Source: Cucumis sativus
Taxonomy: Eukaryota; Streptophyta; Magnoliopsida; Cucurbitales; Cucurbitaceae
DNA: 64,000 bases
Assembly: GCF_000004075.3 (NCBI RefSeq)
Contig: NC_026655.2
Span: forward strand, 23,545,489 to 23,609,488
Direction: 5' to 3'
Part shown: piece by piece, positions 534-49,009 of the stretch
How the letters are laid out: each line of letters begins with the position of its first letter
Position numbering within the stretch: the stretch's first letter is position 1
Translations under genes and position numbers: made by a program
The notes under the pieces: generated by a model
Told to the model about the DNA's origin: nothing
The model's input: the letters and a program-made list of their open reading frames with translations, nothing else
Databases searched by the model: none

Positions 534-3500
534 CTGATTATTGGATCTTTTCTGCATAACTGAATTTCTTAACAATGTTTGCTTGGATATCAATCGCTCC
601 GCGAAATAATCAACCAGCTGAAACAAGAAACATAATAATTTTCTCTATGTTCCACAATTATAAGAGCAATTGAATTGCATATGAAAAGGAAATATTTATA
701 TCCATGCTTAGTTTACAAAATTATAGTAAAAATTTTAAAATAAATTTCATTTGTTTAAAGAAATCAACTTATACGATTCAATAGTCGATTCTTAGTTAAA
801 CAACTTAGCACTCCAAACATATAGGGAAAAAAAATTATAAAGTTGTTAAAAAAATTCCTAAAAATAAAGATGAAAGTATACCTATTTTTAATGTGTTTTA
901 ACAGGTTTTAATGCACTTTGGGATAATTTTAAATTCTTAATTTCAAGAAAAATAAGTATTCCTAATAGAACAAAATGTAGGATGACAATAAAGGAAAAAG
1001 AATTGATGACCACCTATAAATAACATATTTAGAAAACTACACAATAATATACATATATGCTTTCACATAGACCGGAAAGCAATAATTATCATCAAAATGA
1101 AGAAAAATATAAAATCAAGAACCTCATCGCACAGTGGTTCAAGTTGTAGACTCTCCACTGTAATTTTCCGTATGTTCTGCTTAAGTGCAACTTGTCCTAA
1201 ATCTTTATATGATGACCGACCATCAGTAAAGGCCTGCCATCACAAACTATGCTAAGACAAACAACTCAATCACGCATTCATATAGATTGAAGCAATAAGT
1301 TCTTGTTTTTCAAAATGAACAACATAAATAAATAAACAAAAAATTCATATATTAAAAAGAGACTAATGCTCAATGGAAATAAAAATAAAACCAATAAAAA
1401 CAGTAAAGTAAAGTAACGGAAGAAATAAGAAAAAAAAGGCACCAATTTGCATTGTAAACTTTTTTTCCATTTTTATAAGAAACGCTCACAGCAATCGAAA
1501 ACAAATACACGAGTGATAGGACACCATCATTAAAAGCCAGTTGGCCTACCCAAAGAAAAGAAAAATAAAGAAAACAATAATAAATAAATAAAACCCCACC
1601 ATTCAATTAGCCTAAATAATAATAAGAAAAGAAGAGAAGATCATTGGATCAAGAGGTTTTAGGCCTGGAGATCCCAAATCTCCCTCCCTTTTAAACTTGG
1701 TAGTGGCCTAGTGGGTTGCCTTAGCTTAGTAGCTCGACTCAAGTTGTTGCCATCAATCTCAGTTTTGAACCTGTAAATAATCACGTAGCATAAACCACGT
1801 ACAACTGGCCGATGATATAGTCCTTTTCTCAATACATAAAAATTATGTTGTTAAATGATAATCACCATGTAAACCCTGTCACAGGAAAAAAACTGAACTT
1901 CTTTGGAATTTTACTCTTCCAAATTCCGACAAAAGCAGAATTAATCTGGGTCGGAAAAGCAACAAACAAAATATGTAATAGGAACCAAGAGGAGAAGCCT
2001 AGCAAAGGATCAGGAGACCAAATTCTAGAGTCCCTTCTCTCCCAAAGAATATGTTGGTCTAGAACCTAGCAAAGTAGGGCACAGTACATTGACACATTGT
2101 TGTCGTTGTTATTAAGGATTCTATAAATGACAAAACTGCTTAAAATATTTACAAATATAGAAAAAGTTTAGAACCTACCAATGATAGATATTGAAAGACA
2201 ATAGTTAGATGTGTCTTGGAAGTGTCCTAACATGTTGGAAAGTAAAAAAGTATAAATAAAATAATAGACACGCCAACTGGTTTTCTATTATTTTAATAAT
2301 ATAAGTTTTATACCCACCTGTCCAACGATCTCCCAAAATAAACTTTTCAAGCCTTGCCCAACAAACCATTTGAGAAATTGAGAGAATAAAGGGAATCCAT
2401 ATGTGATAGTGATAGAACACCGATATAGTGTTTCTATTTTATCGATATGTCATGAATCAAGTTATGGTTGAAAAAGGTGCTGGAATCTATTAAAGTGGCT
2501 TGTGGGAGAAATATTTTGGTATATATCTTTAGTACTTCTTCATGCATGGGGGATGAGTTTTCAATTGGAACATCAATTTGAAGATTCAACATGGTGTGTT
2601 AAAGCTTTGTATAGGATGTACAACCTTTTGCTGAGGCTGATATTATGAAAGATTCTTTTGTTCCTCTTCTGGTTTTGGTCTCCTTTGGCAAGTTAGCTTT
2701 GAGTTCACCGGTTGCTTCTTTTTGCTAGTCTCTAGATCCAAATGGTTTCCTTTTGAGAAAGTTATTTTGTTATGCTTTGTATTTATTTCTCTTCGTTTTG
2801 GTTCTGTTTTATCTTCATTTTTTCTGTTGGTTTTCGCGTTTTTAGCTTGTTCTTTGCATTTGTTTTGTTTTAGTCGTTTTTTCCTTGTATTCGCTGAGGT
2901 TGTCTTTGGGCAGTTTGTTTGGTTGTTTGTCTTTACTTTTTGCTCTTTGTATAATTCTCTTGTACTTTGAGCTTTAGTCTCATTTTCCTTTATTAATAAA
3001 GAAGCTCGTCTCCATTTCAAAAAAAAAATTATTGATATCTCAAACAGAAAATTACAATATAAAAGCAGCAAAAGAAAAGTAAAAGAACCCTAACCCTCTG
3101 CCCTTCCTCTCTTTCAAGGAATGTTGCAGCCCTAATTCTTCACCAAATTCTTCATGCCCTTCTTCCCTCCCCACCTCCCTATTTATAACCATCTAACTGC
3201 CTTATATAACTAACTACCCTTACCCCTATCTAAATGTAGGTATCTATCAGATAGCTTCCAATAGATTTTTCATTTTTCTTATGTATTTAGACAGAACAAC
3301 TGCTTTCTGGACGGTTTTTGAAAAGCCCACTCGGGTGCGCACCTAGGCTCAAAGCCCAAGTTTGGTGCCTTGCTGGAAAAGGCGAGACTCACAAAACAAG
3401 AAGCGTCTCATTCATGCGTCTTTTGTGATGCCCAAAGGCTCAAAACCCTGCGTTTGGAGGGTCTTCATTATTTTTTTAAAAAAAAAACTAGTAATAACTA

Positions 3501-6500
3501 AGGGTTTTGTCTAGGCTCTCTTCTTAATGTAGTACTGTACACCTAAACAAAAAAGCTTAAGCTTTTTCTTTTGCGACTTGTGCGTGTGCCCAGAAGACTG
3601 TTGTGCCTTGAGCTTTAAAAATCAATGGGTGTGAGGCATATCTGCTCACAATAACTTTATACCACAAAGCAATCCATGAAGAATCCTTAATCCTACTAGT
3701 TCCACTAGCTTAACCACTAATTTCCAATCAACCAAATGAGACCCTTCATCGTCAACCCCTTCCCACAAGTAGTAAGGATACCACTCAATTAAACTTTATG
3801 GAACATTCTATGATATTTGAACAAAATACAAGAAATTGAAACAAAAACCAAATTATCTCATAAAAATATATATATATAAAAAAGAAAGAAAAAAACAAAG
3901 CAAAACATAACTGAAGAACTATTCAAATCAACCCTACGTGAAAGGGCCCAAACCACATTTTGTGTGAAAGCATATCTAATTGAATTATTATAAATACCAG
4001 AGTATGGCCTTTCCAACCACATTTTCCACGAAAACAATTCCAAACAGCAGCCTCCCTGGTCATTTGAAATGGAAATTAGAAACATGTGATACTCAAAAAG
4101 AAAAAGGCCGTAGAATACATTCAGGTCAATGCAATTGAAAAATTGAAAAGTCCAGTGGATGGGAAGGAAATCCAACCACTTTTCATTAGAAAAAAAGTAT
4201 TAATTTCATTGAACAAAAAAAAAAAAAAAGCTAAGAATCAAACTAAGGTTAGTAGTGAACGAACTATGGAGTTTAAGTCCATCAACTTGTCACAGCCTTA
4301 TATGTATATCAAGAAAAAATAAATAAAGAATTTGAAAATAATCATATTTATAATTAAATTAAATTGATAACCAAAAAGATTGTTACAAAACGTAGGGAAA
4401 CATATACTTGGTCCTTGAGGATTAGTGTTGATGTCTATTTAACTCCCAAGTAAACACTTAGTCCTTGAGTTTTGGAAAATAGTCATAAATGACCCCTATT
4501 TTAAATTGACCATTATTTGACTAAAAGAAAAGTTGCGTGAGGTTGTTGAGTTGCCAATTTTAAATGACTTAAAATTATTACTTGATTTGATATTGATTGT
4601 ATATTATATGGTATAGTTTGTCTTTTTGTTTTGTTTTTCTTCTCCTTTTTTGATGTTGTTTTATGATACAATATGGTAGACATCCTATTATTCTACAATA
4701 CAGTAGAATGCGTAAGAGAAAGAGGAAGCACGTGTGAAGGGAAACTTAGACAGTGAGGAAGGAGATAGGGGACCACGGTGGGCCAAAGTTAGTTCAAAGA
4801 AAGAGATAAAAGCCAAGGAAGGTAAAGGAGAAGGGCATGAAGATTCTCTTCTTTGATCCACATTAATTAATAGCATGGAGCCACAGATTGGCAAACCTTT
4901 ACCCTAAACATACTTAGGACACAGCCCAAAAACTGTATTCCAAACATCAAAATGTCTCATCAATATACTGTACAGAAACTAGTTCATGAATGCAGGCAAG
5001 GGACCATGGATGTTACATCCTTTTTTAACAAATTCTCACTTATCTGGCAGGAGATGGATCTATGCAGAGACGAGGAATGTTTTTCTAATATATCGTTGAT
5101 GCTTTTTTTCTAATGTTCTGTATGGACTGACTACTTTATTTTGGGCTTGTATTTTGGCTTTGTATTGACTACTATCAACCTAGAGAAAAGATCATTTTTA
5201 TTTCTTTCCACACTATGGACATGATGAGGGCGCTAAGGAGTGTCAACCTAAATGAGATGTCCGGGTGCGTTTGTTGATCTGCCTCTCTCTCTTTCTTTGC
5301 CCATACCCTCTAGTACTATGAGCATTTGTCTCTATTTAATTCATTAATAATATTGAGACTTCTTTCCTCTTCAAAAAAAATAACAAATACTAATAGTATA
5401 AAAAGTAAAATGACTTAAACTCAACTGAGGAAGAAGCTTAATAATTACAAGTCACCCTAAATAACTTCCACAAAAACATTTAAAACAAACCATATAAGAA
5501 AAACACAAACACACAAAGCCTATGAGTACATCAAATAAAAAGATTCTAAGAAAAACTCGACGAGAGAGAAGCTATAAAATCTTTACCCATCTTCTGAGAT
5601 ATTTAGGGAGAAGGATCGTTCCTTTGTATCACCACCTTTACACTGGCACCAATTTGATACATAATTAATCGAGTAAAGTTAAAAAAATTAAAATTTTAAA
5701 ATAAATATAATAATGATAATACCAACCTCTTTGCACTTGGAAGTTATAAGTTCATACAGTAATTCTAAAATTGGCCTCTAAATGTTTACGTTGTACAAAA
5801 AATAAGATATAGAAGTTGGCAGCTGTTTTCATTTCACTTCTACAAATTGGATGAATATCTCAAAACAGAACATAGTGTGCATAAAGAAACTGATATTAGA
5901 AACAAAATACCATTGGACAAAGCAAACTGGAAAACTGCCCAGGAACACAAGCTTCGATATCAATGTCAAGATCCTGCAATTTTTTTCTTAGAATATTCAA
6001 TCGAGTGGAGATTGAAGCCTTGTCTGGTGGATTCCCCAAAAGGGCTGCACAAAGAAGAAAGCGAATAACATTAAAACTAAATAAACGTCAAGTCCTCTCC
6101 CAAGTCCCATCCTCAAAATACATTGCCTGCAAACTACTTTTCTGCCTTCAAAAATCCTATTTCATCCCAATCCAAAAAGAGGGGAAAAAAAAAGAGTAAC
6201 CACCCAGCCAAGAAACATCAAGTTACCCCACAACATGAGTATTAAGCAGAAATAATCATAAATCCAACTACAATTAAACAACCATAAAAAGTTCCAATAA
6301 TAGCACCTGGAGGTCTGGGAACATTGGCATGAGAAGTAAAAGAAGAAACCCCATTTGGTTTCATGGCAAAGGGTTTCACAAGGGACAAGGGTCGTACAGG
6401 AAATGAACCATGGAGAAGAGAAATGCTTCTGTACAGGAAATACTTCTGCGAAAAAGAAGAAGAAAGGTGTGACAGGAAAACCAGAGAGGTTGATTTGCAT

Positions 6501-6595
6501 AAAGGAAAGGAACCCATTAGACGAAATGGTGAGGAAAATGAAGAGAGTTTTGAAAAGGGGTTATAGAGACGGTGATTGTGATGAAGAAAACGCAT
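534..6595 (-). CDS. TWINKLE-type organellar DNA primase-helicase, 5' part (runs off left edge)
   Basis: Six minus-strand exons were read by eye: 6307-6595, 5911-6044, 5587-5642, 3998-4055, 1123-1233 and 534-617. They join in frame to 244 codons with GT donors and AG acceptors, and the rest of the gene lies left of the window. Residues 1 to about 97 look like an organellar transit peptide rich in Ser, Phe and Arg, starting MRFLHHNH. The zinc-ribbon primase module follows: ACVPGQFSSLLCPMCKGG, then WNCFRGKCGWKG (CxxC and CxxxxC pairs), then KITVESLQLEPLCDE and a YFAERLISKQTL segment. These match plant TWINKLE, the T7 gp4-like primase-helicase thought to replicate mitochondrial and plastid DNA. 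The TOPRIM and helicase parts would lie outside, so whether this copy is full length cannot be judged. Introns at 1234-3997 and 4056-5586 contain LINE tails. Confidence 0.88.
2640..3028 (+). mobile_element. LINE 3' tail with poly(A), in a TWINKLE intron
   Basis: A T-rich stretch ends in 'tttattaataaagaagctc', a short spacer and an A10 run at 3019-3028. The last 70 bases resemble the end of the second tail at 5100-5380, so both belong to one non-LTR family, inserted antisense to the host gene. The left edge is uncertain, no target duplication was found, and no reverse transcriptase remains. Confidence 0.55.
3300..3480. repeat. Local GC-rich repeat-like stretch, unclassified
   Basis: Between AT-rich flanks in the same TWINKLE intron lies a CG-bearing stretch with alternating GCGC, 'aggctcaaagccc' and 'ggcgagact' words, ending at a T7-A9 run near 3472-3488. 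It looks like an old short retroelement. I could not find clear A and B boxes or target duplications. Confidence 0.3.
5100..5380 (+). mobile_element. LINE 3' tail with poly(A), in a TWINKLE intron
   Basis: The words 'gctaaggagtgtcaacct' and 'ccgggtgcgtttgttgatct' (about 5230-5281) are close to the end of the large LINE at 48.92-48.97 kb ('ctaagagggtgtccacct', 'gggtgcgcctgctgac'). The segment ends in A8 at 5373-5380. It is therefore a 5'-truncated 3' UTR of the same broad LINE family, on the plus strand inside a minus-strand intron. Confidence 0.65.
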
Positions 6596-8266
6596 TCTGG
6601 CTATTGGTAGGGTTAAGGTGATCAGCTGAGTATGGCCACCATTTCAAGTCTACACTACAGAGTTAAAAATAACATAGTAGGTAGGTAGAGACTGAAGAAA
6701 CCGGCAGGGGCATTGAAATGAATATTGGTAAAGAGAGGAAGGAGTTAGGGGTGTGCGAAGAGTGGGTTTTGGTTGCTGCAAACCACCCCAACTTTCTTCG
6801 GCGGCTTGCTTCCGACGACAAAAGAACCCGATCACGGAAGGGGGAGGCTTTCCTGCACAACTAGCAGGATTTTTCTCCTTTTTTTCTTTACTAAATAAAA
6901 ATCTGTCCTTTGCTGCTAAAAGTAGGTTATGAAGATTATAATAGTCTGCCAATTTGGGAGGTAGATTATTATAACATGAAATAGGAATTTTTAAAAATAA
7001 TAGATTTTATAAAACATTTAGGGTCTATAATAAATTTTATCGTGTTAGAAAACTATTGCTGATAAATGTAAGTTACAATTTAATGTTGTTATTTTTATAG
7101 ATAACAAATTTAGACTTATTGTTTGATCATTAGAATAAAATATGTAACCATTTAAATTTCAACTATTAGCATTTATATTGAACAATAAATTTAGAATATA
7201 AATATGACCATTTTGTACAAACAATTAAAAAAGACAAACAACCATTGAATAATGATATATACATGCAAACTTTTTCTTTAAAATGTATTTACGATTTTTA
7301 TACATAGTTCTAAGTCTAAGTTCAATTCTTATAATTTATCTTTCTTCTTCTTCCTCTTTCATTTGAGATATTTCTTCTTGTTCGCACGAGATTTTCGAAG
7401 AAATTTGATTCGTGGAGTTGAACTTGAATTGATGTTATATTTTTATTGATTTTATGTGATGTGGTTCAATCTCTATAATTTGACCTTTGATTCTCTCTCG
7501 ACTGGATGCTTACATTTGATTTGAAAAAGCGGAGCACGTGATGTTTTTGAAGTTATAGCCTTGGAAGAAAGTGTGTATCTTCAAAGAAGTTTCAATCTTC
7601 AAAAGAAGTTTGAGTCTTGGAAGAAAGTTTGTATCTTCAAAAAGCTTCAATCTTCAAGTCAAAATTTTTCAACCCCTACAAATGAGGAGAATTATTTTAT
7701 TTATAGAGTTCTCATGTTGGTCCATGGACCAGACTTATGGACTACATGGTTACTTATAGACTCAATCACATGGATTTGAGTCATATTTAGCAATAATATT
7801 TAATTGAATCAACATAATTAATTTCATCCAACAATTATGATGAAAACATATGAGGATTGACCAATTTACGTATTCAATTTTATTTTGGGACACGTGTCAA
7901 CTTTTTAATTAGTCTCAAATTCAATTATTCATACTTTTCATCAATAATTTAGTAAATGGTGGGACAATTTGTGATTAGTCTAAAAATTGTATATTCAACA
8001 CTTGGAATCGTCTATTTCACTTATAAATGATATAATTATTTTTCACATAAAAATTGTATTTACCATTTTTAAAAGTATAATATTATTAATAACTTGACAC
8101 ATTTATCATTCTACAACCAAACATGTATCTAATTCTACTTATTTGGACCTATATTATCGAGTAAAAGACCCAAGGTTTGAATATTTAAATCCATACAAAT
8201 AGTACAATTCCTTCCAAATAAAATTTTAACGTCGGAAAATTAAAATTCAAAATATTGATTAATGCG
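6596..8266. other. TWINKLE upstream region and unclassified repeat
   Basis: 6596-6960 is the probable 5' UTR and promoter of the minus-strand TWINKLE gene, with relatively high GC at 6690-6870. Open frames here have no recognisable domain. About 7380-7800 looks repeat-derived and has a tandem duplication of about 60 bp ('cttggaagaaagt' at about 7560 and again at about 7616). No gene was recognised. Confidence 0.4.
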
Positions 8267-8440
8267 TTTTAATGACACTACTCATCAAGACATTGTGTCT
8301 TTGAAAAAAAAAGGTGAGGTGAGGTAAATTGTGTCATTGAAAATAAAAATATGGATTATTTATTGACACAATTTTTGCGTCATTAATTAACAACCATTTT
8401 TGCGTCATTAATTAACAACAATTTTTGTGTGTCATTAAAA
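8267..8440. repeat. Small element with TTTTAATGACAC inverted ends (copy 1)
   Basis: It starts TTTTAATGACAC and ends GTGTGTCATTAAAA, giving inverted ends of about 12 bp. Inside, 'tgcgtcattaattaacaac' is tandemly repeated at about 8380-8420. It resembles copy 2 at 8784-8935 in direct orientation, so it is a MITE-like or CACTA-subterminal-like unit. Confidence 0.5.
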
Positions 8441-8783
8441 AAAATTATATGGAAAAACCCCAATTTTCAATTTTTTTAATTTTCCTCCCTTGCGCAATTA
8501 AAACTAAATAAAAACCACAAATTTTCTTTCAAACAAAAACATTGTCGTCGAACAAAGCCTTAACGAAAATTTTCTTTTCTCTCTCTACTTAAAACACAAA
8601 AAAATTATTGTCGAACGAAGTGGGCTACCACGTCGTTGTGAAGAACGCCTTCCAATTTTTTGCCACCCGTTGTTGTCGATTCCACACTCCAGTCACTGTC
8701 GTTGTTGTCGCCACAACAAGCCTTCATCGTCGAACCCACCAATTTAGTCATTGTCGTCAAATAAATTTATTTAGAAATATGAG

Positions 8784-8935
8784 TTTTAATGACACTTGAA
8801 ATCAAGAAAAAATGATGAGTGGGAATAAAATGTATCGTTAAAAATAAAAATGCGAATTTTTCTGGACATAAATTGAGTTTTCTTGACACAATTTATGCGT
8901 CGTTAATTAACTACATAAATTATGAGTCATTAAAA
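8784..8935. repeat. Small element with TTTTAATGACAC inverted ends (copy 2)
   Basis: It starts TTTTAATGACAC and ends GAGTCATTAAAA, with internal 'gacacaatttatgcgtcgtt' similar to copy 1. The two copies lie about 0.5 kb apart in the same orientation and may be terminal pieces of one larger decayed element whose middle is 8441-8783. Confidence 0.5.
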
Positions 8936-9905
8936 ATTACCCTAATAAAAAACCGATGTTTTCCTTCATTCGTACGCTTTCTAATTTTAAAAAATAATTT
9001 GACACTTTCATCTCTCTTGAAATTAGGAAAATTGTATTTGGTGACAAATTAGTTTAGCTATTTTGCAAAAATGTCTTTAAGGTTTGTGATTTTGCAAATA
9101 TAGCAAAAATAATCAAATTCAAGGGTTAAGTTTATATATATATATTTTTTTTTCGTAAATAATAAAGTATATGTACTATAAACTTAATTATTATAACTTA
9201 TTTTGCCATTTTTGCAAGTGTTCCCTTAAATTACCATAATAAAAACTCAATATTTTCCTTCATTCATATGCTTTCTGATTTTAAAAAAATAATTCGACAT
9301 AATCGACCCATCTTTAAAACCTAAATTTCTAACAGTGGTTCATTATAGATAAACATATTTCAATTCATAAATAAAACTTTTATATTCAAACTCTTTGAAT
9401 TTCACCTTATTGATTGATTGAATAAAAATAAATTGTTTAAATTAACTTTTTTATGATAGGAAGTAAAGTTTAAGGTTTTTTTTTTTTTTTTTAAATTTGA
9501 CACAAATTTATACTATGAAAATAGAATTTTAAAGTAGTATACAAATATTGGTCAATTTTGATGGATTAAATAAGACAATAAATATATTATAATCTTGAAA
9601 TGAAAAGAACATTCTAACCTTCCCTTACAAAATCTTTATTAGATGAATTAATTTATATATTGTAATTCAACAAAACATGAATTAATTAGATGGAGGGAGA
9701 GAACCAAATTCTAAATTCCAAATTGTGATTGTTAAAAACAGATGTACTAAAAGATTTTAGACGAAATAATTTAGATTGTAATTCAACCAAATAAGAATAA
9801 TTAATTATGAATAGTTATTACTCAATTAATCATTTAAAAAAGAAATCGGTTTTGATATTAATTACTTATTATTACTTGCTAAAAATATTTAAAGTCTCTT
9901 GCCTC
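8936..9905. other. AT-rich intergenic stretch, no gene seen
   Basis: This stretch holds a piece of the dispersed 'ttttgcaaatatagcaaa' repeat family at about 9055-9235 and a T16 run at about 9477-9492. No coding exon or RNA gene was recognised. Confidence 0.5.
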
Positions 9906-10374
9906 GATAACACCCAAGAATTAAGGTAACTTTAAATTTAATTATCTTTATTTAAATTAATTATGATGGACTATTCAAGGGTTAATTGGGATATTTGTTA
10001 AAAATTGTTGGTTTGGAAGGTAGAGTTAATTAAATATTTAATTAATTATGGAATTGAGAGTTTGGTGTTGATTAAAGGATAGTAGTTAATTATTTGGATG
10101 AGATTTAAGAATTTTGATTAATTATGTATAAATAATAAATAAATTTTTGGAATGAAAATAATTAAAGAGTATATATTGTTGTTTTGGGAATAAGATAAAA
10201 TGGTTGATGTGATGAAAGGTAGAGATTTAATGAGGAGAGAAAATAAGATTTATTTGGTTTATTTTTTTAAATAGAAAGGAGGGAATGTTGAATAGGAATA
10301 ACAATAATAATAAATTGTTATATTATTATCATTATTTAACTCCAAAATTATCTTAATTTTCGGGGCGTTACAAC
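9906..10374 (-). mobile_element. LTR-like fragment, reverse orientation
   Basis: Read on the minus strand it begins TGTAACGCCCCGAAAATTAA and ends GGGTGTTATCG, with TG...CA-like inverted termini. The sequence just outside (10375-10415, minus strand 'gaggacgtaaggagggaagg') resembles the 'FEDE...GGG' codons that often precede the 3' LTR in plant Ty3/Gypsy elements. The two ends also form an imperfect inverted repeat of about 40 bp (TAACRCCC...AATTAAGRTAA). It is probably an LTR remnant of about 470 bp. Confidence 0.45.
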
Positions 10375-10788
10375 CTTCCCTCCTTACGTCCTCAAAAATT
10401 CTAATTTTGAAATGACTCATGAGAATTAAGCTCACTTATCATAATTAATAACATTATCCACCAAATTTCAAAATCTTTAATTAAATGTACATACACATGT
10501 ACGTGTATTTAATTAATCCAACACGTTAAACCAAATAAAAGTTTGACTTCAAATTTCAAATTAATGTAACACTAAGATCATTTGTTTTCAATTCTCTCAT
10601 TGCATTTTACGTATAACATAATTATCTCGCATAATCATTATGCATGTTTAATTACATCTTCGTATACATTTTCCTCACCTCAAGTAGTTGCCACATCTTT
10701 TGCCAAGTTGGCAGTCATGTGGAATAATCTTGACACATTTGGCCAATTCCATCAATTCCACTACGCATAACGCATCATTCAATGCTAA

Positions 10789-10986
10789 ATCACACAGTAA
10801 GCAAAAGACATCTCATATCAGATCACACAGCAAGTATGAGGTATCCTATTCAAGATCACACAACATAAATTGGATATTTTATTCCAAATCACACGTTAAG
10901 AATAAATCATCTTATCTTAAATCACACAACAAAGATAAGACACCCTATACCAGAACACAGAGCAAGTGCGAGACATTGCATCGCAG
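10789..10986. repeat. 33-bp minisatellite, six copies
   Basis: Six consecutive 33-bp units, most starting ATCACACA, run without any length change from 10789 to 10986. Their sequences have drifted but the period of 3 x 11 is exact, so an open frame on the plus strand encodes an imperfect 11-residue repeat (SHSK-like). No promoter, domain or homologue is evident, so I do not call it a gene. Confidence 0.75.
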
Positions 10987-12075
10987 AAGGTACAATGATG
11001 CTCATAGTTCATTATTTAAAATTTTATCAAGTTTCATGCATTCTCATAATGCATCATTTTAATTTATAATAAATTTGACTCATATATAAGTCATATGCAT
11101 TTTAACAATTGGAAAGCATAAGGTAAAATCTTATAATTCATTATCTCAATAGACATACATTCATGAATTCAAATGCGATTTAGAAATCCTTTTCATTTTG
11201 AAAACATTTTATTGGAAGAAACACTCACAATAAACAATTAATTAGTTCCTTCGCTCAACTCCTAAGCCAATGACCACCTTGTAATTCTTTGTCGGATTCA
11301 AGCCTCTTGAAATATTTTGGAAAACTTAAAAAGTTTCTAAATTTTTCCTTAGTTCCGCGTGGGATAAAAGTAGTTTAAAAAATAGTTGCACTTCTTCTAT
11401 TTATAGGCCTCTCCAGAGACATTTTCCAATGTAGAAATGATGACTTCTACTAGCATTCTTTAAAAAAAATAGTTCAGCATGCCACATGTGTCTGCCAAAT
11501 CCTTATACTAGATTTGAATTGGGCGGCAAGGTCAAGTCAATTGTCGACCTATTGACACATGGCTACGTCTTTACTTCTTAGTGAAGTAAGCTCAAAACAC
11601 CTAGTCATTCACCGCATCGCCTTTTTCCACTAGCATCCTTTATCGTATAGTCTTTTCGTAAAATGCAAGTTACTTTGAAATGAATCTCTCCGTGAACATA
11701 AATGATCTAATCTATCTAGATTATTAATCAATTTAGCCAGACTACATTTCATGATGTCATACATGTACTATGTATATAGTCTCCATATGGTTAAATAGAC
11801 TAAATTTTTTCTTTAAAGAAAAAAAGTTAGTCTTCCATTTTTTTTAAAAAAATATTTATATTTATTTCAAAAGAAGCAAAATTATTCTTGACAATTTATA
11901 AAAATGATGAATTGTAAAAGAAATTCCTTCGAGGAAAAAGTTGAAAGTTTCAACCAAATCAAACTTTAAAAGTATGTCTTTTTTCCTTAATATTTAATCC
12001 AAGGCTTCTTACCTATCAAAGAATTAACACACAATATCTCTCTAGTGCAACTACTAAAAACCTAACTATTATGGA
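10987..12075. other. Repeat-rich spacer between primase paralogues
   Basis: No gene is seen. A moderately GC-richer part at about 11340-11700, with a TATA-like 'ctatttatagg' at about 11397, looks like decayed retroelement sequence but has no readable domain. Confidence 0.35.
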
Positions 12076-15000
12076 TTACTCCACTCGATGCTCTTGGAAA
12101 AGGTCCTCTTCTGCAAAGTCAAATGACGAAAAGGTCATCAAAATAAATAATAAAAATAAAAGGGACCATGAAGTAAAATGGAAAGCAAAACGAATCTAGA
12201 AACGTGTGTGTATATATATATGTCATTGCAATGAATAATGCAATGGCATAGATATGTTTTTCAAATAAGAAGGTAGAAACATAAAAAAAAACGCTACTCA
12301 CATTAAAATACAATATAAAATATGGATGTTTTCAAATTAAAAAATAAAACTGATTATAACTAACTTATTGATAAATATAACTACACGTAATTGATTACAA
12401 CAAATTTAGAATAGACACTAATAGATATCTATCTAAGTTTATATAGATTATATTCAACCTATAATTATATTTAAAACAACTTTTCTTTAAAAAAAAATAC
12501 CCATGGAAAAGTTAAGGGATTTGTTTTCAAATGAAGGTTAAATATATGCCATCCAATGAATATATTGGGAAGAATTATTAAAATATTTAAATACAGACCT
12601 TTTTGTATTTGATTTGAACTTGAGAGTTGGTAAAACTTGGCATCTTCAATTGCTTTCTTCAAAGCATCTGGTCCCAAGTGCACTAGAACCTGTATATATA
12701 TATATGTATGTATATAAATATAATTTAATGTGGAAAATTTGTGTAAATAACATTTGAAAATATTTTTAAAATATAATAAAATGTCAAATTCTATCGATTA
12801 TACATATTGATAAATTTTTATTAATAAAATTTTGCTATGTTTTATAAATATTTTGATTTATTTTGTTATATATTTTTAAAATATCACATTTAATAGTGTA
12901 TAAGATAAAAAAAAAAAGTGAAACGAAGAAAAAGGATTATATGAAAGAAAGAAATTTAGAATTTTTGTTTAAAGTTTTTGTAAGTACAAACATGGTGAGA
13001 ATTTGAACCTAAGATCTCTTGATTCTCAAACACATACCTACGTCTGTTGAGTTTAGCTCTTGATGGCAAAAGAGCTTGGAATTAACATTGTATTAATGAA
13101 AGAATAAGGGAGTAAAGATTATAATAACAAGAATTCACACGATGCTAAATTTTTTATTAAAGTGAACTAATTCAACTAGCATAAAGTATGTGTTAATGTT
13201 CAAAGTGATCTATGGTTCGAATCCCCACCTCTTATTATAAAAAAAAAAAAAAAAATCATCGACGTGATTCATTCCTATTATATACAATTCACGAGCAACT
13301 TTTAGAGGTGCAAAATTTTTATGAATAATTATTGAAAGGAGGAAGGTAACCTCATTGGCATCCTTAAAACGGTTGAAGCCATCTTTATATGGCCAAGATA
13401 CTCGCCAACATCTGTTAATTCATAAAACAAAGTCATGTTATTTTATCCATGTGAAGAGAATAGTCAAACATTTAATCTTGAACTTGATAGTTTCAGTTTA
13501 ATGTCAGTTGAGCTATGTTCATTTTGTCAAATATATAAAAGTTTGATCTTAATTTATAAGATTATCAAACCAATTCACACATGAGTTGAGACCTATTTTT
13601 TCCAAGACGACGTGCTAGCTCTTCTGCCAAAGCTTGCCCTGGTACATCGCTATCAGTGGCCAAGATAACGCGGGAAACCTTGTAGGTTAAGCAAAATGAT
13701 TATCTAACAATGTATTCCTATAAAAACCACTTTGTTATCCTTTTACTAATTTCAGGCACAATGTTATACCTTATCTAAGTAGTCTTTGCAGCTCCACAAA
13801 TATTGGTATGCAGTATCCTGAATTCATCCATGCAATGCATAGAGATTATGTTGAAGTACACTAATTGAAAAGTTTGTAGATGTCAAACAATATAAATTAA
13901 AAAACAACAATGATGAAATTGTAAACTATATATATAATCACAAAAACTAAAGGTTAGAAATACTTCTTTAGTCTTATCCATGTGATAACTATTTTGTTTT
14001 GAAGCATAACACTTCCAAGTTCTAACTATTGTTTTTTTTAAAAAATTATTATCTAACTTTTATGGAGGTTTCCAAAAATCCAATCCAAAATGTGGTTTTT
14101 CACCGTAGAATTTGATCAAGAAACCAATTAAATGTGTAGTTAAACAAATTCTTCAAAAGTACAATTTTCAAAAACCAAAAGTTTTTGAAATTATCAATAA
14201 ATTATCTATCGATTATATGTGTTATGTAATAAAATCTCTAATTTGAATGTTTATTAATAATTTATTCGGTTCCCGTCTGGTAATTTTCTTTTTGGTTTTT
14301 TAAAATTAAGCCTATTTTCTTTGAATGTTTTAGAATGATGCGAATCGTTTTTTATTAAATACAAAAGTTATGTTATTTTTGGTCAAAATTATTTAAAAAT
14401 TATAAGTTCGTTTTTTTAGTTTTCAAATTTCGACTTGGTTTTTTAATACATCTTTCAGAGTAGATGACAAAACAATAATTTAAAAATGAAAAAATGTTTA
14501 TAGACTTTAATTTTTTAAACCTAAAAAAAAAGAACAAAATGGTTATCAAACAGGGCGTAGATTGTTTCTTGTTCTTAGTTGGTTTCTGTTGAAAAGGGTA
14601 TAGAGCATTTCTTATATGATGTTGCTGTAGTGACAACCCTTGGCTAACTTTTCAAATATCAACTAAAAGTTTTGTTTCAAAGGAAAGAGGAAAATGGATA
14701 ACTAGAAGCATAACTGAGGCAGTTAAGAAGAATGTAAAGCACATAAGACTGACATGATAGAAGTATTTGTATAGAATATAACCTTTTCAATTGGTGGAAC
14801 TGTATCAGTTGAAACCTTGTTTGGGGCACCACCAGGAACACTAATACAATTCAGGAAACCAGCTTCTTCAACTGAAAGTTTATCCATTTCACCTTCAACC
14901 TTCAACAGTATATACAGAATATTACGGAAAATGGATGCCAAAAGCTATTAACATATCAAATAGAACCTTAAAAGATTAGGTATAAAACGTGGATTACAAT

Positions 15001-17869
15001 GATGAGTTCATCTGCATCATTAATGTCATCAATCCCATACAGGAACTTTGCTGTACCCTTCTCCTGAATGTTGACATCATATACATATTAGATTCTTTGT
15101 ATAAGAGATATGTTCAATATGTTCCCGACAGCACTTTTTAGGACTAATAATTAAGTTTATAGTAACATTTTAAAAGAATTACAAACATAGTAAAATCTAT
15201 TGGTGATAGTCTAGTCTCTAATATTTCTATAAGCGATGCGATATGATCTACCATTGATAGACTTTAAGAGTTTGATCTAAATGTAAATTTTGCAAATTCT
15301 TTTGCTTTATCTTATATTTAAAAATGCGTTAACATTGGACCTAATTGCTATATTTGCTATGGTTGCAAAAGGACTACGTACCTGCCAAAATCTCTTGTCC
15401 ATGGTTCGGTACTTGCAACCAACAAGCTGTCCATTTTGTCGATAAGTAAATGCAATAGTAACCTGCAATTGGCCTTTAAACTTGTTAGAAGTTCAACATA
15501 CAAAGGAAAAAGAGAAAATAATCATCATTAATTTAAACACCAATTGAATGCCTATTCTATAATGATGAGCCTTAATAGAGAAACCATTCGCCCTTGAGGT
15601 AATTAGGATATCCATCCACAATTTAGAGCTAAGATCCTCTCTTCATTGAGGAGAGAAATATAATGCAAATTTTAGGTTTTAAAACAACCAAACACCTAAT
15701 TATATAAACAGAAGAATGCAACATACTTTGAACAAAAATTGTCTCTCCCGAAATGATTCATTGAAAATACCACCACATGTAGATGGAAGAATATCAAGTC
15801 AATATTTATAAAGAAATTAGGCAGCATAGTATTTACAAGAAACCAAGTTTAAAATTTCAATTATAAGGCATGTACACAAAATCATTATTTCAAGTACCTG
15901 ACGACCAGCTAATTGCATAACAACATTCCGTTCTAAGGTTTCTTGGGATATCATTCTCATGCTGAAATAAGAGATTAGCTGAAAAAGAAAGATCAAAACA
16001 CTCTTGAATTACGTTCGAAGTATTTTTTAATTCAATAGCAACCAAAATCAAGAGCTAACTCAATTTCTTGTTTGAACCAATAAGTACTTATGTTTGTGTC
16101 AAAAGATTGAATCGGTACGACATATTAGTGTAAGAGTATGGCTTGTTCATTTTTTTTTTTATGAAAGCAACAACTTTCACTCAAGAGAGAAAATGAAAGA
16201 ATACATGGACATATAAAAAAAAACTCAGCTCCCGAAAACATCACCTGAGGAGATCTAACCATGCGGAAGAACATCTATAGAATATTTACAAAAGATATTC
16301 GAAACTGAAACTGACAAAGAAATGTGAAAGTGAATAAGGGACTAAACTTCTAGAGTTCTTATCCAAGAATCGTAAAAGTGTTAAGCAAGAACACGACCTA
16401 TTCATCGAAATGCAAAGAAATTTGAAGTACCTCATCACAAAGAGGCTCCAAAACCAAACTTTCCTTGGAACTCCGTCCAACCATTTTCGTAATTTTGCCG
16501 AATCCATTAAATGCCAATTTGCCATCTGCAAATATCTAAACCATACAATCATTTTGCTGAGCAAAATTCTCAACGTTTAATTACAAGATATGAGATTGAA
16601 GAGAAATATTACAAATACACATTATTGTTTTCATAACGTTACCTGCCCTGCCCAACCACACTCAAACTGGAAACACCTCCACATTGCAAAATCTCTATGT
16701 TCCAAATTATGACAGGATGTAATTAACAACAATTTACTCTCCAATCAATCTCCATAAGAAATGAAGAAAATGAAAAAATAATAACAAGTATGGTAATTTA
16801 CTTACCCAGTTGGAATCACATGAAGAGATAAGCTCCTCTCCATTAAACGACCACCCTTGCACTGTCAACCGTGAACATATCTAATTATAGAGATAATAAT
16901 AAAAGAAAGTTGTATTACAAGTTTGGTCTCCTATCTTCAACAGTTATGTTTATTTTGGCTCCTATAAGAGGTTTCAACAAGTCTTTATCTTTTAAAATTG
17001 TGTTTCTATTTAGTCCTACAACTTTCCTTAGGTCCTATATATCCAATGAGTCCATGTCATGTCATTAGCATTTAACAATTTAGTACTTACTTGGCATACG
17101 GGCTAGATCATGCATATGGAGAGATAACTCCTAAACTTATGAAGTTACCAGTAGAATGAAGAAAAATTCTAGACACAAAAAACTTGAAGTTAAGAACACA
17201 ATATAAATTTTTTAAAGTTGATAAGTGAAATAGATAAAACTTCTAAACTTTTAATCACTTAAAAGCTTCTGGAAATATATAAATTAGGCTAACTTTGTTT
17301 TATTTTTATCTCAAAATTTTAAAAATGCATTTTTAGTGTTGAACATAAAAAAAAAAATTGAAAAAAGGAGCTTGTCTATGATCTATAATCTAACAAAAAA
17401 GAAAAAGACAATTGAAATGAAAAGATGGGTTTGGATTTTCATGCATTAATTCAAACCACAAAATGTAGAAACAAGAGAAGCAGATAACCTTGGGACAGAA
17501 GAGGCAATAGTATTTTCCAGGGATACAATGTTCATCACAGACTATTCCAACAAGATCCATCCTCTCCATAAGATGCTTCACTTTAATTATGGAAGCCCAA
17601 AACATTAGCCTCAAAATCCGAAAAGGAACAAAAGGGTGGGGTTTCACTTTCTAAACTCAAGAAAAAAAACGAGTACCTGGGGGCGGGGAGGGGGGAGCAT
17701 GAGAAACGGCGGAAGATAGTCTGGTAGTGCAGAACCGAAGGAATCGGGAAGGGGAAGAGGAAATGGAGAAATTGTTTAGAGAATGAGAGAAAGGGAAAGA
17801 GCGATGATTAATGAATTTGAATTGGAAGTTGAAATTAGAATTGAAAGTGAAAGTTGAGTTTATTGGCAT
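12076..17869 (-). CDS. Organellar primase homologue (TWINKLE paralogue lacking helicase)
   Basis: Exons on the minus strand: 17677-17869, 17489-17580, 16806-16861, 16643-16694, 16431-16535, 15898-15978, 15382-15462, 14998-15063, 14783-14899, 13770-13817, 13593-13678, 13351-13411, 12599-12689 and, tentatively, 12076-12110. They join in frame to 387 aa. If exon 13 is terminal, its frame runs on to a stop at 12471 instead, giving 418 aa. The first in-frame ATG is 17869, followed by a Ser/Phe/Asn-rich transit-like peptide. The zinc ribbon is LFCPKCKGG plus WRCFQFECGWAG. Primase residues are in MISQETLERNVVM and TYRQNGQLVGCKYRTMDKRF. The TOPRIM metal site keeps VEGEMDKL and LATDSDVPGQ. No RecA-type helicase motif follows. 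Exon order and phases match the TWINKLE gene at 1-6.6 kb (for example, both exons 3 are 56 bp). It resembles Arabidopsis Twinky and may prime organellar DNA. Confidence 0.87.
12740..12890. repeat. Dispersed 'TATCRATNATAGA / TTTGCTAT' repeat copy
   Basis: A short AT-rich unit with 'tctatcgattatac' and 'ttttgctatgttttataaat'. It belongs to a family seen at many places in this window: about 9055, 15125, 50120, 53080, 55330, 56870, 57700, 57960 and 63285. Confidence 0.45.
15125..15370. repeat. Dispersed 'TCTATYRNTGATAGA' repeat in primase intron 7
   Basis: 'aaatctattggtgatagtc', 'gatctaccattgatagact' and 'tttgcaaattcttttgct' mark a copy of the same dispersed family between the exons at 14998-15063 and 15382-15462. 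Confidence 0.45.
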
Positions 17870-18376
17870 TTGGAGAGAAATGGAAGAGCAGAGTGGAAGC
17901 AGCCTTATCTGCTTCGCATACACACACAAAGTTTTCTCTGTATATTGGAAGTTATGACGGTTGGAAAAGGATTGGGTATCTTTCTTATTGCTCCAATCAA
18001 AACATTTTTTTCTTTGGATTTAATTGATTGTAACCAATTATTAAAATATGATTTAATTCTATGTTTTGAAAAAGTTACAATTTTAATCCTTACATCTACC
18101 TCGGTGTAATCCATTATTAATCGCATGGTAATCACACCACATGTTTTAATTAGGTAATTACTTGCTTAATCACCTAAATATTTTGAATAAAATAATTAGA
18201 CATATAGCACACAAATTCATAAAAGACTAAAAAGCCATGTATCCTTTCGAATGTTTTTCTTTTTTCCTTTCGATTTAGGCATCAGTAATAGCATAATTAT
18301 GATTTTAGAGACTGAATACCCACTCCATGTTTCGATAAATCCCTGCTGTTAACGAGCTATTGGAAAAGCTATTTCA
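17870..18376. promoter_or_regulatory. Divergent promoter region shared by primase paralogue and mTERF gene
   Basis: The two start codons lie back to back, 507 bp apart. The mTERF-proximal half is AT-rich. I see no single motif that assigns a TATA box to either side. Shared control of two organelle-directed proteins is an inference from position only. Confidence 0.45.
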
Positions 18377-19738
18377 ATGGCAGGAAGAATCTTAATCGGA
18401 AGTACCGCATTTCTCCGGCGAGTGGTTTCCACTTCAATTCTTTCCTCTTCGTTTCAGGAAATCCACCATGTTTCAGCTAAACTGGTGCCCACTTCCTCCG
18501 ATCATCCCCAGATTTCCCTGAATCAATCTAATCTCCTTCTCAAGATCGGCTTCACACAATCCCAAATCCGCGATTTCCTTTCACAGAATCATCGCTTCTT
18601 CACCAATTCCAATTTGCATGACATTGAACCTTCTCTACCCCTTCTTCTTTCCTTCAAAATTTCCCCGAAGGATCTCGTTTCCATCGTCTTCGACTGTCCC
18701 GCAGTTCTGGACTTGGTGTTTCTCAAGAAATGGAAGGTAAGTTTGTCTCTAATTGATTTACCCAATGTTACTGTATCTATGATTCGGAGTATGCTGGTAT
18801 TATCTCAACGGTTTGACCTTGACCCGAGTCTTTTTCGTAGAGCTGTTGATTTATTGAAACGTTTTGGGATTAGTGATGCTGCCGTGATTAGGGTTTTAGA
18901 GGATTACCCTGAAATAGTGTTCACAAACGAGGAAGAAATTTTGCGAACGATTGAATTTCTGATGGGAATTGGAATTCGAAGGGATGAAATTGATCGGGTC
19001 ATTTGCTCGATTCCCAGAGTTTTAGGGTTTAGGGTTGAGGGCAGATTGAGGAGTTTGATTTGTGAGTTCAACGGTTTGGGGTTTGATCAAAACGTGATTG
19101 CTAGAGAAATTGTTAGGGAACCGAGAACTTTAGCCACAGAATTAGGAGAAATTTCAAGATGTGTCGAGTTGCTTAGAAATCTGAAATGCAGGAACTCAAT
19201 CAAGGAGAGAATCTTTAGAGAGGGTTCTTTTAGAGCTGCATTTGAAGTGAAACAGAGAGTTGATTGTTTATGTAAACATGGGCTGATTCGTACAAGAGCA
19301 TTTAAATTGCTATGGAAAGAGCCGAGGTTGGTCACTTACGAAATAGAGAACATTGAAAAGAAAATTGACTTCTTGATTCATAAGATGAAATTTGGTGTTG
19401 ACAGCTTGATTGATGTTCCAGAATATCTAGGAATCAATTTCGAAAAACAGATTGTTCCGCGCTACAATGTGATCGAATATTTGGACTCAAAAGGCTGGCT
19501 TGGTTCTCAGGTTGGTTTGAGGGAAATTATCAAGCCTAGCAGGCTCAGGTTCTACAACCTTTTTGTTAAGCCTTATCCACAATGTGGGAAGATGTTTGGA
19601 AAATTTGCGGGAGATAACAGAACGGAGAGTCCGAGTCGGCATCCTCTTGGACTATGGAAGGCCTTCAAACCACCAAGACATCCAGAATCAAAAGAGGACA
19701 TTGAAAACATGAAGTCCTTCATGGAATCTCTTGTTTAG
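18377..19738 (+). CDS. mTERF-family organellar transcription regulator
   Basis: An uninterrupted 453-aa frame from ATG at 18377. The first 25 or so residues (MAGRILIGSTAFLRRVVSTS) are Arg/Ser-rich without acids, like a mitochondrial or plastid presequence. The rest is a chain of degenerate mTERF helical repeats of 30-35 residues, each with a Leu-x3-Gly start and a P-x-x-L/V turn: LLLKIGFTQSQIRDFL (about 53), LKRFGISDAAVIRVLEDYPE (about 160), FLMGIGIRRDEIDRVICSIP (about 194), FNGLGFDQNVIAREI (about 231), LCKHGLIRTRAFKLLWKEP, and a terminal VIEYLDSKGWL. mTERF proteins bind organellar nucleic acids and act in transcription, RNA splicing or ribosome biogenesis. The absence of introns is usual for plant members. 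The specific subfamily was not assigned. Confidence 0.93.
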   Translation: MAGRILIGSTAFLRRVVSTSILSSSFQEIHHVSAKLVPTSSDHPQISLNQSNLLLKIGFTQSQIRDFLSQNHRFFTNSNLHDIEPSLPLLLSFKISPKDLVSIVFDCPAVLDLVFLKKWKVSLSLIDLPNVTVSMIRSMLVLSQRFDLDPSLFRRAVDLLKRFGISDAAVIRVLEDYPEIVFTNEEEILRTIEFLMGIGIRRDEIDRVICSIPRVLGFRVEGRLRSLICEFNGLGFDQNVIAREIVREPRTLATELGEISRCVELLRNLKCRNSIKERIFREGSFRAAFEVKQRVDCLCKHGLIRTRAFKLLWKEPRLVTYEIENIEKKIDFLIHKMKFGVDSLIDVPEYLGINFEKQIVPRYNVIEYLDSKGWLGSQVGLREIIKPSRLRFYNLFVKPYPQCGKMFGKFAGDNRTESPSRHPLGLWKAFKPPRHPESKEDIENMKSFMESLV

Positions 19739-22304: not shown

Positions 22305-23231
22305 ATGGCTGCTCTCACTTACTACTCCAATTTCTACTCTCCTGACCCTTCTCCATACTATCACCATTTCCACTATTTCTCCCCTGAATTCTCCCCTGAT
22401 CTTTCTTATGTCCCTCCCCCTCAGCTTCTCAACCACCCCGCTGCCTTCGATTACGTCGACGATTCTCTTTTTTACCCCACTGCTGATACTCTGTTATTCG
22501 ATGATGCCCTTCCCTTTCTCTTTTCCGATACCTATCCCTGTTTCTCTGCTCCCTCCGTCGATGAATTCCTTCCCGTCTCCTCCCAATTCTTCCCTTTTGA
22601 TGAATTTGAATTTCATTGCCCCAAACGTCAGAGGGCTGTGTTCGAACACAGTTTTTGTTGTGGCGGTGGTGTTGGTGATGGTAATGTAGGTGGTGGAGGA
22701 TCAGGAGCAGGAGCAGGGTTCTTTCCTTCTCCTCCTCCTCCTCCTCCTCCGTTGGCGGAGGTTTTTTCGGGTCCTTGGGATTCTAGAATGGACAATGCTG
22801 AAATGAGGAATGATTGTTTGAAGAGCCAACCGTCGCCGGCGCCGTCGAGTCATAATAACTTATCAGCCCAGACGATTGCTGCCCGGGAACGGCGGAGAAA
22901 GATTACGGTGAAGACGCAGGAGCTCGGAGAGCTGGTTCCGGGTGGGAGTAAGATGAATACTGCTGAAATGCTGAATTCTGCTTTCAAATATGTGAAATTC
23001 TTGCAAGCACAAGTTGCTATTTTGCAACTCAAGCAAGAAACAGAGCAAGAAGGACAAGAAACAGAGAACCTTGAGATTCTTGAATCCACAATGATTCAAG
23101 AGAAGTTATACTCAGAAGAAAAATGTTTGGTTCCAAAAGGGTTCATCCAAAATCTTGCAGATTTCCCTGAAATTCAGTCCCATCCATCCATTTTCAATTC
23201 CATCAATAAGATCCTTCACAACAGCAGCTAG
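22305..23231 (+). CDS. bHLH transcription factor (bHLH52/53-like)
   Basis: A single-exon frame of 308 aa with start context TCCAATGGCT. Residues 1-110 are rich in Tyr, Phe, Pro and Asp, suggesting an acidic/aromatic activation region. Gly-rich (about 120-138) and Pro-rich (about 142-149) low-complexity tracts follow. The bHLH domain lies at about 187-240, with basic region SAQTIAARERRRKI, helix 1 ending at QELGELVPGG, and helix 2 NTAEMLNSAFKYVKFLQAQV. The basic region lacks the canonical His-Glu-Arg E-box triad and instead has the Q-[ST]-[IV]-AAR-x-RR form of a plant-specific subgroup. Continuation of helix 2 as QVAILQLKQETEQ suggests a short dimerisation zipper. It should be nuclear. The subgroup name rests on my recollection of the Arabidopsis bHLH52/53 type. 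Confidence 0.9.
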   Translation: MAALTYYSNFYSPDPSPYYHHFHYFSPEFSPDLSYVPPPQLLNHPAAFDYVDDSLFYPTADTLLFDDALPFLFSDTYPCFSAPSVDEFLPVSSQFFPFDEFEFHCPKRQRAVFEHSFCCGGGVGDGNVGGGGSGAGAGFFPSPPPPPPPLAEVFSGPWDSRMDNAEMRNDCLKSQPSPAPSSHNNLSAQTIAARERRRKITVKTQELGELVPGGSKMNTAEMLNSAFKYVKFLQAQVAILQLKQETEQEGQETENLEILESTMIQEKLYSEEKCLVPKGFIQNLADFPEIQSHPSIFNSINKILHNSS

Positions 23232-35192: not shown

Positions 35193-37097
35193 TCATATTT
35201 TAAAACTAGAGGTTCCATAACTTGGTTGTTTTGGTCGAATTTGAACGCCTTTAAAAACCAATTCCGACTTCCGATCCTCGCTGTGGATATTCATGCTAAA
35301 CTCGTACTCCTTATCACTGTCACAATCATGTTTATCGTCGACCTTGATTTCCCCAACTTTGATCGTAAACCATTCATTGGGTGGTCTAGATTCGAGGTTT
35401 TCCTTGATCACAACTGTTATTGCTTTTGGGTAGGTGATTTCAAAGTTAGTAGGTACATGATATCCAGTGGCATAAGGCTTGCACAAAAGTTCAAACAATA
35501 CGTCATATGTAAGGGTAGATGATAGCATATGTTGCTTGATCTTTCCACGTGCTTCTAGAAAAGTTATTTCACTAAATGCAGCCAATTCAGTTTTCTTACT
35601 GTCGAAGGATTCATCAACAACAAATCAACAACTTTAGAAATAGTAACTACGATGAAAAAAAACTACTTTATGCATTTCACTTAATTTAATCTATATAATT
35701 TGAGAGAATCCTATGAATATTGTATTGTAAATAGAATATGTTATAAATCATGGAGAACAATAAATTTTAATTATATATTGAAGACCGAATAATTCTAACC
35801 TTCGTCTGATTAAAGATCAAAATTTTGTAATTTAATCTATTTAATTTTCAAAATTACACTCAAACAACCCTTTTAATTTTGATTACAAAATAAATAATTA
35901 AGATTCATTTCATTCAAATTCAGACCTAATCTATCGCTTCTTTTATATTTTATTTTAATTTTTTTTTCATCTTGTTATATACTTTCAATCTGTTTACAAC
36001 ACACAAGAAAAGGAAAAAGAAAATTCCAATTTTATCTTTATAGTTTAAATTTTGTTTAATTTTAATTCATTATTTTCAATAATAAATCTTAAATTTAATT
36101 TAGTCCTATAATATATAAACATGTATTTTCTAAATTTATGGTAAAATTGTATATAGATAACAAAGATCAATTTATTTATTTACCTAAAATCAACCAAATT
36201 AAACTACCCCTCAAACTAAGTTAAAGAAACTTACAAATATATAGCAAATTGACCATGCATGATAATGGAAATTGTGACATTTTGTTATATTTAAAAATAA
36301 TATTTCAAAATGTAGAGACTAAAACGATATGGTTAAAAAATAAGTATACCCATTAAACTCCGAATCTTTCCATCTGATCAACTTCTGACGATCGAAAGAT
36401 ATTTTGAGGCCTCTCGGAGGTATAAAGAACGCATTACCCTTTGCCTTCTCATCAAACCAATACATCTGCATACAAACAAATCATACTCAGCTTTAACAAT
36501 TTTGAATATCTATTCAAATCTCGGTATAAGATTAAAAATAAATTAAATTACAATGTAAAAATAAATTTGTGTTTTAACTTAATTTCTATGTAAACAAATT
36601 TGAATAATATTAGGGCATGTATGTTTGAGAGTGTTTTTATAAATATTAATTTTAAACATTACATAACATTTTTTTTGGTAATAGTATGATAAATCACATT
36701 TTAAACTTTCAAAGAAGTAGATACATAGAAGATAAGATTATTATTAAGTGTAGAGAAGAAAGGTAGATAGACAAATTTAATGACAATTCAAGAGTACGTC
36801 AAAAGTAATTTTAGACATTTCAAAATCAGTTTAAAACATGTGTTTAATATTTTTGTTTATGAATCCTTCTAATATCAATTATATTATACTCTAAAATAAA
36901 CGTAAAAATGATATTACACTTGCCTTGTTTCCATTGTCTATGTAGATCCCATCACAAAGTTGTTTAAAAAGCTTAGCGTCGATGAGTCCGCTGTGCGACG
37001 CATGATCTCCATCTATTGGCAAGATACATTTGAAGCACTGATATTTTTCTATTAATTTTAAATTCTCTCTTTCTTCTTGAAGCTCTGACCAATCCAT
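35193..37097 (-). CDS. Phloem protein 2-like lectin, copy 1
   Basis: Three exons (36924-37097, 36350-36465, 35193-35598) join in frame to 231 aa. Exon 1 gives the variable N-terminal arm with QCFKC and KLFKQLCDG. Exon 2 gives MYWFDEKAKGNAFFIPPRGL. Exon 3 gives the beta-sandwich core with EARGKIKQHMLSS, EWFTIKVGE, KEYEFSM and the closing LVFKGVQIRPKQ signature of the PP2 domain. The first intron appears to use a GC donor (AACAAG|GCAAGT), and intron 2 is a phase-2 GT-AG intron. PP2 proteins are GlcNAc/chitin-binding lectins of phloem, with roles in P-protein plugs, long-distance RNA or protein movement and defence. This copy is the most diverged: it has DRQKLIRW where the others have Trp-rich C/QYW.W, and an extra C-terminal SYGTSSFKI. 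Confidence 0.88.
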
Positions 37098-37144
37098 GTA
37101 AAGAGGTTTATTTGGATTATTGAGAGATTGGAGATATAGACGAA

Positions 37145-37171
37145 GAATGAGAGTGGTGTAAGGCACACGTA

Positions 37172-37211
<40 letters not shown>
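37145..37211 (-). promoter_or_regulatory. Core promoter of PP2 copy 1 with (AT)n tract
   Basis: The 5' leader word shared by all PP2 units (plus strand 'gagtggtgta', 37151-37160) lies 48 bp upstream of the ATG. An (AT)n run at about 37174-37211 stands where the other copies have a short TATATATA box, so the microsatellite probably grew from the TATA box. Confidence 0.6.
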
Positions 37212-37214
<3 letters not shown>

Positions 37215-39170: not shown

Positions 39171-39179
39171 TGACTTCTC

Positions 39180-45258: not shown

Positions 45259-45304
45259 TTCAAGAGGTTAACTTGGATAGTAAGAGAGTAGAGATATGGA
45301 TGAA

Positions 45305-48985: not shown

Positions 48986-49009
48986 TAAAAATTGAATGAG
49001 GAATTGAAG

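Follow-up and report, generated by a model that had tools for sequence, protein, structure and literature searches.

TWINKLE-family genes at the locus

The stretch analysed is a 64,000-bp window of the Cucumis sativus genome (C1:23545489-23609488; coordinates below 1 lie to the left of it), in which a preliminary description had placed a tandem pair of minus-strand TWINKLE-family genes, a primase-helicase type (gene B) beside a primase-only type (gene A). The genes were rebuilt exon by exon, with DNA of the same genome added on the left and right of the window. The two genes do adjoin, and their described types were borne out by phrog_239 and Toprim matches in A and a DnaB_C domain in B, but the cluster was found to have three members, with a second full-length TWINKLE (copy C) further left. 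By its sequence, the locus is a TWINKLE cluster made of the full-length organellar primase-helicases C and B, related by a recent tandem copying, and an old partial copy, A, cut off at the primase-helicase linker. The reconstructed features are as follows.

12076..17869, minus strand: gene A, primase-only TWINKLE paralogue (Twinky type), 14 exons, 387 aa
17869-17677, 17580-17489, 16861-16806, 16694-16643, 16535-16431, minus strand: gene A exons 1-5
15978-15898, 15462-15382, 15063-14998, 14899-14783, 13817-13770, minus strand: gene A exons 6-10
13678-13593, 13411-13351, 12689-12599, 12110-12076, minus strand: gene A exons 11-14
16643..17580, minus strand: zinc-finger domain of A (exons 2-4), by alignment with B and C
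13351..14899, minus strand: TOPRIM core of A (exons 9-12), with VEGE, TDSD and KDANE motifs
12076..12689, minus strand: exons 13-14 of A, where the TWINKLE homology stops at the linker (AKFYQLSS), followed by a short new C-terminus and the stop
6595 to -23319, minus strand: gene B, full-length TWINKLE, 21 exons, 714 aa, primase and helicase
534..6595, minus strand: gene B exons 1-6, in the window
left of the window to -23319: gene B exons 7-21, those for linker and helicase starting at -8916
-32423 to -59948: copy C, second full-length TWINKLE, 21 exons with splice sites conserved, 717 aa

The coding regions of A and B are separated by 5,480 bp, close to the 5.5 kb described earlier. When spliced, gene A gives one uninterrupted reading frame of 387 codons, and each of its 13 introns has GT/AG ends; an exon 5 starting from 16525 (95 bp) broke the frame and was rejected, and the acceptor at 16535 (105 bp) restores it. 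The phage DNA primase/helicase family phrog_239 spans residues 92-371 of A (E 8e-41), and the Pfam models Toprim_4, Toprim and Toprim_2 scored above cut-off with no helicase model among them, while NCBIfam gave no family for this protein. The scores of A, B and C were 50.6, 43.4 and 46.8 bits for Toprim_4 and 43.0, 29.4 and 34.1 bits for Toprim, respectively. As had been noted from the window, the zinc ribbon cysteines (C93, C96, C121 and C126) and the TOPRIM acids (E of VEGE, D-x-D and D of KDANE), whose catalytic role is known from T7, were found to be kept in A on alignment with B, C and T7. The RNA-polymerase/TOPRIM domain of A is homologous to that of T7 gp4 primase (1nui, E 7e-5), and C is homologous to full-length T7 gp4 (6n7i) in both the polymerase and the helicase domains (E 3e-13), whereas A has no helicase. 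The plant zinc fingers are longer than that of T7 between cysteines 2 and 3, with eight residues in Arabidopsis TWINKLE (AtTwinkle) according to passages of PMC10557236. With a homologous zinc finger and TOPRIM RNA-polymerase domain, A belongs with the TWINKLE/T7 gp4 family; the RecA/DnaB-type C-terminal helicase of a full TWINKLE is absent from A and present in B and C.

The absence of a Pfam helicase and the end of homology at the linker agree with the earlier claim that A stops before any helicase motif. A helicase exon hidden downstream of A exon 13 was sought by tblastn over 6900-12600, between A and B, and was rejected, there being no credible match in that interval (best E 5.3 among the matches listed). 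An alternative 3' end, in which exon 13 is read through to a stop just below 12474, does not bring in a helicase either. As a check for a transit peptide, the first 60 residues of A were found to contain no acidic, five basic and 17 Ser/Thr residues, and the same region of B and of C likewise has no acidic residue.

These features fit the description of Arabidopsis Twinky (At1g30660), a truncated relative of TWINKLE (At1g30680) that is limited to the primase domain, stops close to the linker and lies near the TWINKLE gene (passages of PMC3610141 and PMC6843274), so that the parallel drawn in the preliminary description held in a comparison by description. The cucumber locus differs in carrying two full-length TWINKLEs. 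In a table of PMC4166229, AT1G30660 is listed with plastid localisation, and a primase-domain entry is given for Arabidopsis alone of the eight species there, two Porphyridium entries being marked partial. The titles and abstract openings listed from the open-access literature carried no report of a Twinky gene outside Arabidopsis.

When the sequence was extended leftward, gene B gained 15 more exons, helicase included (DnaB_C, 29.0 bits), and its protein contains VTGVPNSGKS, which resembles a Walker A motif. A tandem duplication of gene B emerged when 204 kb were compared with themselves; C matches B in blocks that are 85-94% identical, introns included, and the proteins share 652 of 714 residues (synonymous divergence, dS, 0.092; omega 0.43). 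A reading of B and C as two haplotypes was rejected because blocks of this identity, with different insertions, would seem too diverged for haplotypes of one plant. Several profiles scored higher in C than in B, namely phrog_239 (E 2e-94 and 319 bits against E 6e-87 and 294 bits, over residues 138-706 of B), DnaB_C (31.9 against 29.0 bits, cut-off 27), phrog_19 (85 against 68 bits) and AAA_25 (33.3 against 24.3 bits, the latter below cut-off), whereas two primase profiles slightly favour B over C (phrog_47, 60.7 against 57.6 bits; phrog_849, 27.5 against 25.4 bits). In C numbering, B has N at helicase position 647 where C and T7 have S, M at 629 in place of the R of C and the K of T7, and D at 588 where C has N and T7 neither. 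B may be the decaying copy. The B/C omega in the helicase half (0.38, equal to that of the primase half) fits relaxed constraint, although it is no proof and does not indicate the branch. Polarising the 28 B/C primase differences by A was uninformative, with C equal to A at eight, B equal to A at six and neither at 14. Broken copia-like retroelement pieces, recognised by eye, lie at -7300 to -4700 in an intron of gene B and are absent at the matching place in C.

Genome-wide protein searches found three genes only, all in the cluster, plus short fragments. The partial helicase query gave 11 matches (five to B, five to C and one short C6 piece) and the primase query gave 19 (10 to A, three to B, three to C and three short C4 pieces). 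A whole-genome Toprim_2 family search returned no match despite the three genes, since exons were searched singly; the protein searches may thus miss weak copies, and their counts are lower bounds. No relative was confirmed among two stretches in viral contigs and 28 stretches in genome contigs. Pieces of gene A of about 260 bp around exon 6, intron included and 91-92% identical, were found scattered over the genome, and with the two other pieces listed here they look like the product of capture and spread by a mobile element.

C4:16987206-16987465, C4:19693323-19693586 and C7:14770622-14770882: gene A exon-6 pieces
near C4:6904732: gene A exon-8 piece
near C6:12478339: TWINKLE helicase piece

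Age and constraint of the primase-only copy

The relationship of A and B had been proposed from shared exon order and phases, one identical exon length (56 bp) and the similar exon-1 ends SHANVPRPP and SHAPPSPPP. Both ends are present, and all 13 exons common to the two genes start in the same phase (exon 1 trivially); B and C share their intron phases with A. The single identical length is right for the window because only six B exons are in view there, but the full genes share seven of 13 lengths (exons 3 and 7-12, of 56, 81, 66, 117, 48, 86 and 61 bp). Exons 1, 2, 4, 5 and 6 differ in length by whole numbers of codons, and exon 13 of A is cut short. At the protein level, A and C are identical at 125 of 209 residues in the polymerase domain and at 22 of 43 in the zinc finger. 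A and B are thus homologous, and a resemblance by chance is excluded.

When dS was estimated by maximum likelihood under a codon model, it was found to be 6.1 for A/B and 5.1 for A/C, with omega of 0.062 and 0.075, respectively. Setting dS to 3 lowered the log-likelihood by 2.1 (A/B) and 1.2 (A/C), and setting it to 1.7-1.8 lowered it by 10.9 and 8.6. Both estimates are saturated and therefore give a lower bound only, of about 2.5-3. By commonly used plant rates, the A/B split would date to roughly 100 million years ago or more. Two duplications thus underlie the cluster: that of B and C is recent (dS 0.09), and that of A and B is old, its dS being saturated.

An omega of 0.06-0.08 over the whole split implies that both lineages spent most of it under constraint, and neutral drift of A would be expected to bring the mean omega near 0.5. 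These values show that A has long been under purifying selection. It is very improbable in our estimate that A died recently, or is dying, and keeps its intact form by chance; passages of PMC6843274 do leave Arabidopsis Twinky open as a pseudogene, yet, although dS since the split is saturated, all 14 exons of A still give an open frame with canonical splicing, at an omega of about 0.07.

Template residues and the possible function of gene A

The positions of AtTwinkle were mapped on the cucumber proteins through the exact letters and the spacing W-N-x2-R-x-K-x3-K in B and C. Both full-length proteins keep W, N, R, K and K within WNCFRGKCGWKG, reading W-N-C-F-R-G-K-C-G-W-K where A reads W-R-C-F-Q-F-E-C-G-W-A. 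The AtTwinkle residues W162, N163, R166, K168 and K172 thus correspond to W119, R120, Q123, E125 and A129 of A, which differs at four of the five positions from Arabidopsis TWINKLE, B and C, besides lacking the helicase. Change on this scale does not exceed that seen over the zinc finger as a whole (identity to C at 22 of 43 residues; hypergeometric P about 0.16), so the argument about the template rests on published mutants, which were made to alanine (and tyrosine) and not to the residues of A. According to passages of PMC10557236, the AtTwinkle zinc finger sets the template; R166A is largely inactive and K168A strongly reduced, both making only the unextended dinucleotide on GCN templates, while N163A and, slightly, W162Y are altered and K172A is near normal. 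Of N163, R166 and K168, taken as marks of an active primase, all are kept in B and C and none in A (R120, Q123 and E125). The same source reports that the isolated zinc-finger and polymerase domains of AtPrimase cooperate when separate (in trans).

The suggestion that A could prime for the full enzyme therefore needs qualifying, as it differs at template-reading positions that are important in AtTwinkle, and A is probably not a plain TWINKLE-like primase. We somewhat favour, over the other readings taken together, that A is a constrained Twinky-type protein acting in trans with TWINKLE or on another template and thereby tuning priming. In such a scheme, A would be imported into plastids and/or mitochondria, would be incapable of assembling a helicase ring and would still make short oligoribonucleotides with its RNA-polymerase (TOPRIM) core, but its own zinc finger would not read the canonical (G/C)CGA site. 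A would then most likely lend its core in trans to the zinc finger of TWINKLE, or use another template, and so tune priming beside TWINKLE. The changed zinc-finger residues and the cooperation of separate domains in PMC10557236 are what point to action in trans or at another site.

Several observations weigh against this reading. Besides the zinc-finger change lying within general divergence, the constraint measured for A averages over a long period and is compatible with a recent loss. For Toprim_2, A does not rank first (34.5 bits, against 34.2 for B and 35.5 for C). An Arabidopsis Twinky insertion mutant is mentioned, as unpublished, to have no visible growth defect (PMC6554949).

It is less probable, though it deserves consideration, that A is a stand-alone primase working without TWINKLE, its zinc finger retuned (N to R, R to Q, K to E and K to A) to a changed template preference. 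The four zinc cysteines, all the TOPRIM acids and the purifying selection would suit such an enzyme, as would the published role of the AtTwinkle zinc finger and the GCN dinucleotide still made by R166A and K168A, but the charge reversal at the K168 position and the loss of R166 look more like lost DNA binding, and the sequence gives no clue to a new site. A role as a brake, with A binding TWINKLE, polymerases or primer sites unproductively and lowering priming, which corresponds to the competition raised in the preliminary description, appears improbable: it would agree with a changed template readout over a conserved core, but conserving the TOPRIM metal site would serve no purpose in a pure brake, and A both keeps that site and scores well. 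The favoured action in trans could also be put in a bolder form, of which we are doubtful, in which A represents an ancient eudicot organellar primase, helicase-free and template-blind, whose primer-making core has come apart from template reading and which selection has kept beside TWINKLE, working only with the TWINKLE zinc finger in trans, while B loses helicase quality and C keeps it.

Neighbourhood, origin and meaning of the arrangement

The flanks of the cluster carry the following genes.

beyond the patellin-type gene, leftward: berberine-bridge-enzyme-like (BBE-like) genes, by Pfam on two of seven open reading frames (ORFs) and by eye on five
-64045 to -63047: CRAL-TRIO (patellin-type) gene, left of C, by Pfam on the ORF
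18377 on: mTERF gene, right of A
22305-23228: bHLH gene, right of A
about 89.8-91.1 kb: WRKY gene, right of A
near 129-130 kb: PPR gene, right of A

The bHLH and WRKY genes here are taken by us, from their position and sequence resemblance, as probable orthologues of bHLH52 and WRKY14. Locus numbers in Arabidopsis rise along the chromosome. There, AT1G30690 is PATL4; AT1G30700, 30710, 30720, 30730, 30740 and 30760 are BBE-like; AT1G30670 appears in bHLH tables; AT1G30650 is listed with WRKY14; and AT1G30610 appears with pentatricopeptide papers. The cucumber gene order was found to equal the Arabidopsis locus order (BBE, PATL4, TWINKLE, Twinky/bHLH52, WRKY14, PPR), with the exceptions that Twinky and bHLH52 are swapped and that mTERF, receptor kinase and phloem protein genes lie in between.

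On the synteny and the saturated dS, an old TWINKLE-Twinky arrangement is favoured over an independent repeat of the same event. It is rather unlikely, though not negligibly so, that the truncations here and in Arabidopsis were separate events, a view that concerns the origin only and is compatible with any of the functional readings. For separate truncation, and against an old block, stand the exchanged places of Twinky and bHLH52, since AT1G30670 lies between the two Arabidopsis genes by locus number whereas A touches TWINKLE here, and a 15-residue antigen, KASRIVIATDGDGPG, which is common to both Arabidopsis proteins (a passage of PMC3610141), while A and C differ at four of the 15 matching residues. 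The saturated dS, the same end near the linker and the same syntenic block speak for a common origin. Overall, the observation of the preliminary description was confirmed, and its interpretation is partly supported.

Some further features of the neighbourhood were recorded. The mTERF-type gene (453 aa; Pfam mTERF, 134 bits) is divergent from gene A, with 507 bp between the start codons (17869-18377), and the two organelle genes may share a promoter in this intergenic stretch. At least three minus-strand Phloem protein 2-type ORFs (35196, 43159 and 54717; Pfam PP2 on one) occur in 35196-55115 and sit in repeated DNA blocks that are 73-83% alike. A dense array of related repeats spans -101079 to -96281, between the BBE-like genes.

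Gene A belongs to a known but uncharacterised kind of gene, that of Twinky. The present analysis adds the third gene of the cluster, its synteny with Arabidopsis, the long-lasting constraint and the altered template residues, the last of which allow a sharp and cheap biochemical test of priming by A. In 2019, a passage of PMC6843274 left it open whether Twinky of Arabidopsis functions as a primase or is a pseudogene, and an intact, long-constrained A in a matching neighbourhood argues against the pseudogene reading. TWINKLE is described as essential in Arabidopsis in PMC12230644, and its tandem duplication in cucumber provides a natural case in which a replication gene of this kind is present in two copies.

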